Shown in pieces: positions 26,060 through 29,358 of a stretch of 64,000 nt of DNA. A model generated the notes under the pieces. It did not search any database and was not told the origin of the DNA. It was given only the letters and a program-made list of their open reading frames with translations. Position 1 is the stretch's first letter; the number at the start of each line of letters is the position of its first letter. Source of the stretch: Paramacrobiotus metropolitanus (Eukaryota > Tardigrada > Eutardigrada > Parachela > Macrobiotidae); contig NW_026570309.1 in NCBI RefSeq assembly GCF_019649055.1, positions 1-64,000 of the forward strand. The letters run 5' to 3'. The position numbers and the translations under genes were made by a program.

Positions 26060-29000
26060 CTATAAAGTTATCCCGCGCTTGGGGTCGGGGCCGCCGTCTT
26101 TCCGATTGGCAACAACATCATGTCTATTTATTGTTTTCGTAGTTTTTGAAAGAAGGTTAAGGTATGTGGCATTGTACTGGGCGTAGATATCGTCTAGCAG
26201 AAGATAGTGCTCGGCTGAATCCGCATCAATAATACTGCGCAAATCTTCGGTTAGACGAACAAAATCTGTGCGGTCATCCGGCAACAGCTTCCAGCAGTCC
26301 GTCATCAAGGCGTAACTGGATAAAAAATATTGTGACAGTGTTTACAATACCTCAAGCGCTGTAAACTAAAGAATTATTACATACATATACCGTAATAGAA
26401 CCAAATTGGGCATACACTGTACACAGTATACTGTATAGTTGGTGCGGCAGAGTAAGCACACGGTATACTGTGTCTGACCACTGACCAGTTATTGCGTCAT
26501 GAACTCTTACATAAGTGTAGGACAGAATACCGATTGCTTTAACCGTAATCCAGTCCTCAAGGATAGCAAAAACTCGGGAATGTGTTTCCGTATTATTTCC
26601 ACATCCGCATACGGAACTTCACCCAAAGTGAACATCTCCCATAGCAAAACGCCAAACGACCATACGTCCGATTTGGTAGAAAATGTCCGTTCCCCAATGG
26701 CTTCTGGCGACATCCAGCGCACCGGCAACACTTCCTGTATATTCGTGTCAAATCAAAGCGAGGTGAACGTACTTATTTGAAGTGCAGGTTACTTGTAATA
26801 AAATGCAGCGTGGGAAAAAGGAATTTGCCGTAGTGTAATATCTGTAGATTGTGGGCATTTTTAAATCATGCTACGTAAAGGCCGACCACTAGTTCACTAA
26901 TGGTGGATTTTGTTAAACAGATAGGTGAATGTTATCCGTACTTGCAGATCACGTGGACCATCTTGCTTTTCATGCTTGGCTAATCCGAAATCGGCAATCT
27001 TTGCCACCAGTCCATCGCAAATCAAAACGTTGCGGGCTGCTACATCTCTATGTATTATGGAACGACTGCTGAGGTACTCCAATCCACGACTGCTTTGGTA
27101 TGCCAGTTTTAGCAATGCGTTTGTCGATAGAATCTGCTTTTGGGTATCTTCCGATCGCGACTGGCACTGGGCCTCTGCCGTCTTCTGCAGACGTCCCGCT
27201 TCTTCGTCGCTATAAGGAAGGAGGCGTCCATCCGAAGCGGTATGGTTGTAATAATACGCACGGTCCTGTGCTCTGAGATACGTTAGCAACGAACCAAATC
27301 TGGCGTACTCCATTAGCAACATCATCTCGCCTAATGATTAACGTGAGCTAACAATAACATGGTGACCTTTTTCCAGCGCAACGCTATTATATCCGAAAAA
27401 ATGTTGATAGTCACCTTTCATCACCACTCCGAGCAGGTTAACAATGTTCAAATGACGTCCGGCATCCGCCATAATCCGCAATTCCTGGACTAATTGCCGG
27501 AACTGGCCGCTATCGCTTCTGTTTTTGGCGGTTTTCATAGCAACTTCCGTTACATCAGGCTGACCATGAAGACATTTGGCCACACCCTTTCTGACAATGC
27601 CGTTCGCACCTTTGCCCAAAATTTTCTCTGCTACACAAAGCAACGGGAAACAGTCTGATTTATCGTATACTAATAATGTATAAGCTTTTTCCAACGCTGC
27701 TTTTACAAACACGGCATCAGCGTAACTACTCTTACTGATTTCCAAATTTGCGAGCGGTATTTCGAGCAATTCAATGTGCTGCAAAACAACCGGGTCCAAC
27801 TGCAGTATATCGCACTGCACAGCCGATAAATCATGAAGAGGAATGATGGGTGAAACTGCGGATTTGCGACGTCTGATGGTGATGGTAAAGATTTTACGCA
27901 TGCTGTTCTGACTAAGGCGGCGTTTACGGTAGATAACCACCAGACAGATGACAACGGCGATGGCTGCGGCCGGAATTATGGCTCCTAAACAGGCACGCAC
28001 GATGATAGTATTGCGCGATGACGTCAGTGCAAGCGCTGTTGCTGTGTGATTGGTGGAGTTTCCTGTTCAAGAGAAAACGTTGACACTTCAGCTGATCTCA
28101 AGATGCGCAACAGAACGTCAGCCACCAGTCGTTTAATTCGGTATAGTAATATAGGTGCAGTTGGAAAGTTTTGTGCTGTACCTGTGGACGTTTCAATAGA
28201 GACGATTTGAGCAATCTTTGGAAACGATCCAGTTGTAGAAGTTGTGTCTGCAATATATTTCACGTCATTAAGTGCCAACATTATTACTGTAATTATTTAC
28301 ATGGCCCGTGAAACACATGGGCTTGCTAAATTTAAGGCAGGATAATAACTGTTACCGCGAACTTTGACTTCGATGCATGAAAGTGCGAAAAGGGTTACTT
28401 ACAATTTAATGGTTGACAAAATACAGTGTTTTATGGTTCTGTACCCTACCTACAGCACTGGACGTTGTCGTTGACGATATAGATGGTGAACCTGGCGAAA
28501 TGGACGATGAGGAAGCGGATCCAGCGACACACCGCCTTTGCAGTCGGACCGCATCCAGCGAGCTCAGTTGATCATTTGGAGAAAGCTTTGTGCCGGATAC
28601 GGTAATATAAATCGTTGGCGCAAACGGATTTATCGCATAATCAGTGGATGCAAGTTGCATAACCGAGTGATAATCATATGACAGGCCATACGTTTCCATT
28701 TCGTCGGGCGGGACACGGCGAAATTGATCTTGTTTAGCTAAGCATTTCGTAAAGAAAAAGTCAGAACTATTGTAATATTCTTCACGTAAGCCACCGCAGC
28801 CTTACTCGCTACGATATTGCCAGGGTTAATCATGACGTAATAATCGCGATCAAACCTCTGGGGCTCGTTGTAAAATCCTAATACATGCATGAGTTCACGC
28901 TGCACACACGCTGGCTTCCACAGACAATCATTTTCGAACCCTACGTCCTGCTGCCCGCCTTGGCGTCCTACCGTCCACCTTAACCAACTATTTGGCAAAA

Positions 29001-29358
29001 GTCACTGAACTGATTCTCCAGGAAAAGAATTACCCGAGAGTTTTAGGAGAAATCACCTGTCAGGCGAAGCCGGTTTTAAGAAAATGAAGTCCTTTTGCGT
29101 TGTCCGCTTCACAAATTTCACGCAACCTTCGGAAGCCCGCGAGATGATCTCCATGTAAGCCAGTATATGTTCCTTCTGGGACTGATCTGCAAAGTAGAAT
29201 TTGTCGCCATTGTAAGCGCAGTCAACAAGTCATCCAGACTTCTTACCAAAGAAGATGCTAAATTCAAACGGAACGGTGTTGTGTGGCCATGCAGCAGGAA
29301 GACACCAAATTGTACAGATATGGGGCCACAGAATGATAAAAGCATAGCGCAAAACCAT
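26060..29358 (-). CDS. Receptor tyrosine kinase with a pseudo-astacin ectodomain (764 aa)
   Basis: Nine exons join in phase: 29358-29247, 29186-29057, 28987-28806, 28737-28450, 28247-28182, 28062-27415, 27330-26942, 26734-26511, 26315-26060. Residues 1-23 are a signal peptide. Residues 24-211 follow the astacin (M12A) fold: [46 protein letters not shown], and a Met-turn-like SVMQL (M168). Zinc ligands are degraded: first His is Arg111, third is Asn121; Glu112 and His115 remain. A Ser/Thr-rich stalk (212-284) leads to a helix (285-304) and a long juxtamembrane region. The kinase has [12 protein letters not shown] (Lys436), HRDVAARN (569-576), DFG (589-591), SPEAI and DVWSFG, so catalysis looks possible. 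The activation loop has no Tyr. Probably an astacin-fold ligand-binding receptor; ligand unknown. Confidence 0.9.

Follow-up and report, generated by a model that had tools for sequence, protein, structure and literature searches.

The window analysed here, a 64,000-nucleotide stretch from the tardigrade Paramacrobiotus metropolitanus (contig NW_026570309.1), contains at positions 26060-29358 of the minus strand a single gene that encodes an astacin domain followed by a Ser/Thr-rich stalk, one transmembrane (TM) helix and a tyrosine kinase. Its sequence makes it quite probable that the product is a single-pass receptor tyrosine kinase (RTK) with a split, PDGFR/VEGFR-like kinase and a catalytically dead astacin ectodomain, and that it was derived from a family of GH16-type receptors by replacement of the ectodomain with an astacin domain, introns included.

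The first-pass annotation gave the positions 26060, 29358, 28450, 28247-28182 and 27415 for this gene, and the exons were rebuilt by inspection. A model of nine exons on the minus strand (29358-29247, 29186-29057, 28987-28806, 28737-28450, 28247-28182, 28062-27415, 27330-26942, 26734-26511 and 26315-26060) fits all of these positions; its eight introns are all GT-AG, and its frame stays open over 764 aa. A spliced aligner reproduced the nine exons, but since the query was that very protein, this result tests the aligner and not the model. Within exon 6 (28062-27415) lies a stop-free stretch of 105 nt, GTAAGAGT...TTGTGTAG (27735-27631), with a donor context in which ATCA is followed by GTAAGA. 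A GTAAGA donor is found at the matching site in four sister loci of the same genome (L001, L002, L003 and L005, described below), after a conserved LLEI(S/P)LA segment, and L001 and L002 have stops inside the corresponding sequence. Excision of the 105 nt preserves the frame and results in ten exons with GT-AG sites and 729 aa without a stop, and the Pfam scores are barely altered compared to the nine-exon model. Because of the sister donors, the stops in L001 and L002, and the frame that is kept upon removal, 27631-27735 is probably a further in-frame intron that was read as coding in the nine-exon model. The initial description of nine exons in phase at eight junctions corresponds to an open frame, but it probably missed this one intron. 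The exon numbers below refer to the corrected model, which has ten exons and 729 aa and spans the same 26060-29358 on the minus strand.

The astacin part is encoded by exons 1-4. Exon 1 (29247-29358) carries the start codon, a putative signal peptide and the beginning of the astacin domain (WPHNTVPF), exons 2 (29057-29186) and 3 (28806-28987) continue the domain, and exon 4 (28450-28737) contains its end and the start of the stalk, and ends in phase 1. Residues 1-22 resemble a signal peptide but are only moderately hydrophobic, with all 19-residue windows that start before residue 30 at or below 1.6; a signal peptide is plausible here, though weak by hydropathy. The Pfam Astacin model (PF01400) matches residues 24-208 (28538-29289) with an E value of 7.9e-32 and 110.9 bits, against a cut-off of 22.5, and the best solved relatives of this part are the LOC792177 protein (3lqb), astacin (1ast) and BMP1. 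The stalk, to which exon 5 contributes 66 nt (28182-28247, phase 1 on both sides), comprises 64 residues, 32 of which are Ser or Thr. Exon 6 (27736-28062) encodes the end of the stalk, the TM helix and a juxtamembrane segment. The highest hydropathy windows all fall at one site, at about residues 283-304 (27929-27994), with a 19-residue Kyte-Doolittle mean of 2.97. The astacin-family domain, the Thr/Ser-rich stalk and the single TM helix proposed at first sight are thus borne out by the Pfam and structure matches, the composition and the single hydropathy peak, respectively.

The kinase N-lobe (GKGANG, VAMK, QELRIM) is located in exon 7 (27415-27630), the kinase insert in exon 8 (26942-27330), the C-lobe (VRWMSPEA ... 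CPTL) in exon 9 (26511-26734), and the end of the kinase, a C-terminal tail with YLLLDxxYxQxN and the stop codon in exon 10 (26060-26315). Pfam PK_Tyr_Ser-Thr matches residues 405-705 of the nine-exon model (E 1e-72), which are residues 370-670 of the ten-exon model (26240-27628), and alignment showed that the catalytic K, E, HRD, N and DFG are retained, in agreement with the original assignment as a tyrosine kinase. Aside from Astacin, PK_Tyr_Ser-Thr and an overlapping general kinase model, Pfam gave nothing above cut-off over the whole protein; Astacin is the sole such match outside the kinase, and no Ig-like repeats were detected by Pfam in the ectodomain. The best solved matches of the kinase are chains of EGFR, VEGFR1, FGFR1, VEGFR2, FGFR4 and PDGFR (among the best 60 of 2524). 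EGFR leads this list because the construct contains the kinase twice and both scores are counted; its best stretch reaches 95 bits versus 141 for VEGFR1. The region with the motif HLNIVNLLG aligns with GHHLNVVNLLG of VEGFR1, and the insert before LSTNALL is likewise in keeping with a split kinase, as in the PDGFR/VEGFR class. The receptor thus resembles RTKs of the PDGFR/VEGFR/FGFR type in its single TM helix, its split kinase with an insert, its HLNIVNLLG motif and its best solved matches; however, those receptors carry Ig-domain ectodomains, whereas an astacin or, in related receptors, a GH16-like fold is found here.

To find related genes, the genome's own contigs (169.8 Mb in 533 contigs) were searched with the astacin half and the kinase half, and candidate loci were fetched and modelled. 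The order astacin-TM-kinase was found at four further loci, L001 on contig C111, L002 and L003 on C139, and L005 on C118, and the window kinase is 55-56% identical to those of L001, L002 and L003. L001 has nine exons encoding 684 aa without a stop, and seven of its eight introns begin with GTAA, GTAG or GTGA and one with GTCA. In this gene the astacin exon is joined directly to the TM exon, phase 1 to phase 1, while in L002 a stalk exon with phase 1 on both sides can be read by eye between the astacin and TM exons, as in the window, so that the astacin-to-TM joins are in phase 1 in all three genes. In L003 about 4.6 kb separate the astacin exons from the TM exon. Assuming random placement of the at least 164 astacin exon matches and 50 kinase loci over 169.8 Mb, a rough sum predicts about 0.07 cases of an astacin lying on the same strand as a kinase and no more than 3 kb upstream of it, and four were observed (the window gene, L001, L002 and L005), with L003 as an additional astacin-kinase locus at a larger distance. 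The recurrence of this order at four paralogous loci supports the earlier proposal of a fusion in one gene, and makes it very unlikely that two neighbouring genes, one for a secreted astacin-like protein and one for a separate kinase, were wrongly read as one. It is true that beyond the exon 4 donor the astacin frame stays open until it meets a stop (ORF 28406-28801), so that intron retention might yield a secreted astacin that terminates shortly into the stalk. However, the direct phase 1 join in L001 argues against two genes, no start codon with a signal peptide of their own was seen by eye ahead of the TM helix in the TM-kinase exons of the window, and in the GH16-type sister receptors L006 (435 aa) and L008 (396 aa) the ectodomain, TM helix and juxtamembrane segment lie in one unbroken frame. 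In view of the paralogs that share this order, we have set the two-gene reading aside.

The zinc-site motif of the window astacin, located at 28864-28899 in exon 3, departs from the consensus HExxHxxGFxHE in that the first zinc His is replaced by Arg and the third by Asn, while the Glu and the second His are kept. The Met-turn in exon 4 (SxMHY in astacins) reads SVMQL, so the Met is retained and the zinc Tyr has become Leu. The zinc-ligand and Met-turn roles of these positions are those that we assume from the family, and by this count three of the five zinc ligands are lost. In addition, the astacin match starts at residue 24, straight after the putative signal peptide, which leaves no room for a propeptide. 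Because of the lost ligands and the missing propeptide, the window astacin is predicted to be a pseudoprotease, and to this extent, together with the retained catalytic residues of the kinase, the idea that a protease fold was turned into a sensor is supported. The paralogs differ in this respect. The motif HELMHTLGFYH is kept in L001, L002 and L003, while L005 has HALMH and has lost the catalytic Glu; the Met of the Met-turn is replaced by Thr in L001 (SVTHY, which keeps the Tyr position), L002 (SVTHF) and L005 (SITHF), and the L003 copy has a damaged turn. Therefore, catalytic loss appears to have reached different depths within one genome. An astacin that still cleaves at the cell surface, with the kinase reporting the cleavage, is a very unlikely explanation: the intact HELMHTLGFYH of three sisters and the Tyr position in L001 speak for it, but in the window copy two zinc His, the zinc Tyr and a propeptide are missing, L005 lacks the catalytic Glu, and the Met-turn Met has become Thr in L001, L002 and L005. 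The window receptor would thus not be an active protease, although L001 possibly is, considering its intact zinc motif.

Some of the sister loci are visibly damaged, with a frame-breaking duplication in exon 1 of L002 (L002 1193-1310) and a stop in the astacin part of L005 (L005 3498-3872, minus strand), hinting at birth and death of genes in the astacin-receptor branch. This damage, and the long branches of the window copy in the trees described below (1.54 for the astacin domain and 0.5 for the kinase), could suggest that the window locus is itself a family member decaying into a pseudogene. This is highly improbable, as its ten exons have GT-AG sites and show no stop over 729 codons, and its kinase retains the catalytic residues and the 55-56% identity to the three sisters. 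Simple counting over the six pairs among L001, L002, L003 and L005 put dN/dS at 0.18-0.30 in the astacin part and at 0.12-0.19 in the kinase; part of this signal may predate the damage, considering that two of these four loci carry a stop or frame shift. Comparisons that include the window copy have reached saturation at silent sites (dS infinite or above 2), and the dN/dS values above therefore concern the sister loci alone. Identity is lower in the ectodomain than in the kinase in 6/6 pairs of four astacin receptors and in 10/15 pairs of six GH16 receptors. With only 10/15 pairs in the latter, we do not claim an arms race as the reading of faster ectodomain evolution.

In the large family to which this kinase belongs, the usual ectodomain is GH16-like, a wider picture that was missed in the first-pass annotation. 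The window locus and 49 further loci picked from the listed kinase matches were sampled, and these 50 are a lower bound for the family. Seven unambiguous GH16-like exons served to build a GH16 HMM, which after one round of iteration was used to search 3.2 kb upstream of the kinases. With this in-house HMM, GH16-like exons were found at 31 of the 37 loci of a first set, with an astacin at four and neither at two, and at nine of the 12 loci of a second set, from which two other tyrosine kinases (L030 and L031) were left out. L037 showed a GH16 match (E 3.3e-38) when the whole fetched stretch was scanned, while neither the GH16 HMM nor an astacin HMM gave a match in the whole fetched stretches of L011b, L024, L034 (limited by the contig end) and L042. 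In total, the 50 loci comprise 5 with astacin, 41 with GH16-like domains and 4 in which neither was found. Pfam's own GH16 model matches 19 of the 41 GH16-like loci when places are matched to the fetched coordinates, and on single proteins it gave E values of 7.8e-17 for L006 and 1.3e-9 for L039; the single exons tried from L004 and from L010b had no match to this model, and their assignment is based on the in-house HMM. Active GH16 enzymes have the catalytic motif ExDxxE. Six of the 41 were inspected at this site and read SVIDIK, TVMDVR, SVIDVR (twice), SLEARG and SPRMDG, and since these differ from ExDxxE, the six ectodomains look like dead enzymes too.

As judged by alignment to the window kinase, 34 of the 50 loci keep each of the catalytic K, E, HRD Asp, Asn and DFG Asp, and the remaining 16 lack at least one of them, a number that includes alignment gaps. 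Three kinases of a cluster on C98 (L010b, L010c and L012b) have HRN. This cluster (C98:172400-239700, L004 and L010-L013) holds ten kinase-family loci in about 67 kb, nine of them with GH16-like exons and several with a degraded HRD or DFG. At C25:1150700-1176300 and C144:193500-198000 (L018, L019 and L020), matches for more than one GH16-like domain lie upstream of one kinase, and some receptors may have two such domains, or there may be a neighbouring gene. In the window, the receptor gene lies among repeated similar genes on the minus strand (22500-23748, 30863-32155, 34820-36145 and 37125-37703); for two of the exons scanned there, Pfam gives leucine-rich repeats above its cut-off, and a hydrophobic stretch lies at the end of three open frames. 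An open frame on the plus strand (41381-42052) matches Methyltransf_22 (Pfam E 1.5e-14). Searched across the genome, a CAHS protein gave 20 matches, the top one with an E value of 3e-69 and 65% identity, in keeping with a tardigrade source, as CAHS proteins have been described from a tardigrade (PMC3429414).

The window receptor shares TM helix, juxtamembrane segment, kinase and tail with the GH16-type receptors, as indicated by the juxtamembrane segment, by a kinase that is 52% identical to that of L007, and by the kinase trees. The GH16-like ectodomain is absent in the window receptor and the four sister loci, and an astacin is found in its place. In a kinase tree of 37 rows, the five astacin receptors form one side of a branch (support 92/91, 90% of bootstrap trees), and in a tree of 48 rows they do so again (82/86, 96% of bootstrap trees), placed with moderate support inside the GH16 receptors. 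The latter tree was rooted with L030, another tyrosine kinase from this genome, in which an SH2-like stretch was recognised by eye; this root is very distant (end branch of 2.47), the deep forks are unresolved and the rooting is not firm. This position inside the GH16 receptors suggests that a GH16 ectodomain was replaced once by an astacin. The astacin-domain tree was also considered as a source for a single fusion origin, which it does not support: it requires two changes, with one origin in 6% of bootstrap trees, and the window domain is on a long branch and not joined to its four sisters. Since this tree splits the five receptor astacins, it is the kinase trees that carry the argument for one fusion event.

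The astacin set of this genome is large (at least 164 exon matches), and we fetched 14 astacins that have no kinase match within 25 kb among the listed kinase matches. In eight of the 14, introns in phases 1, 2 and 1 occur where the receptor astacins have them (short indels allowed), and the introns that flank exon 2 in the window, in phases 1 and 2, have counterparts in nine. L044 and L047 share only the last two of the three introns, L050 has the first two at matching sites and the third elsewhere, and L054, L055 and L056 differ. It is therefore likely that the type of astacin that served as donor, with the same intron phases, persists in the genome.

How such a receptor might have arisen and work can be sketched from general RTK behaviour, while the anatomy comes from the sequence itself. 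The GH16 part of one receptor branch would have been replaced by an astacin from a local gene, introns included. The dead astacin would then bind a protein, peptide or matrix ligand in or around its groove without cutting it, binding would pair two receptors, the paired split kinases would trans-phosphorylate each other, and the tail tyrosines (YLLLDxxYxQxN) would recruit partners and pass the signal on. The GH16 sisters suggest glycans or matrix as ligands of the family, and the astacin branch a protein or peptide.

The components of this receptor have known counterparts. It belongs to the astacin family by sequence over 185 residues, like astacins, meprins and BMP1/tolloid (M12A), but differs in its broken zinc site, its missing propeptide and the attached kinase; meprins are membrane-bound without a kinase, and we know of no kinase in the M12A family. 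The beta-glucan recognition proteins of insects (GNBP/beta-GRP) are inactive GH16 sensors that signal through Toll or prophenoloxidase, and the sister receptors seemingly work alike in using a GH16 fold without the catalytic Glu pair as a sensor; however, the insect proteins are soluble, whereas here the fold is mounted on a kinase. CHRK1, a plant receptor-like kinase with a chitinase-like ectodomain, likewise would work similarly to the window receptor by using an inactive enzyme fold as ectodomain, but it is a Ser/Thr kinase with a GH18 fold and of unrelated origin. In the open-licence literature, we found no paper that combines 'astacin domain' with 'tyrosine kinase', or astacin with RTK and tardigrade, and there was no astacin- or GH16-bearing RTK among the matches listed. 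Each ingredient is known by itself (RTKs, astacins, and sensors made from inactive enzyme folds), and it is their union that is absent from the open-licence literature searched, among the matches listed.

The ectodomains of RTKs are normally built from adhesion-type modules, and here a protease fold, in the window, and a glycosidase-like fold, in the sister genes, form the outer part of a receptor kinase. This points to a receptor repertoire that is absent from the open-licence literature searched (among the matches listed). More tentatively, and with less than even likelihood, the tardigrade may possess an RTK repertoire of at least 50 loci whose ectodomains are retired enzymes, mostly GH16 domains without the catalytic Glu pair and one astacin branch, with some broken kinases and a tandem cluster, which would detect glycans, matrix or products of microbes at the cell surface, with a possible part in immunity or in sensing the cuticle, and of which some astacin members, like that on C111, may still cut. 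If true, a single chain of these C111-type members would be protease and receptor at once. The family would also represent a traceable ectodomain replacement on a fixed kinase, with the likely type of astacin donor still in the genome and with stages of catalytic loss visible among the paralogs of one genome.
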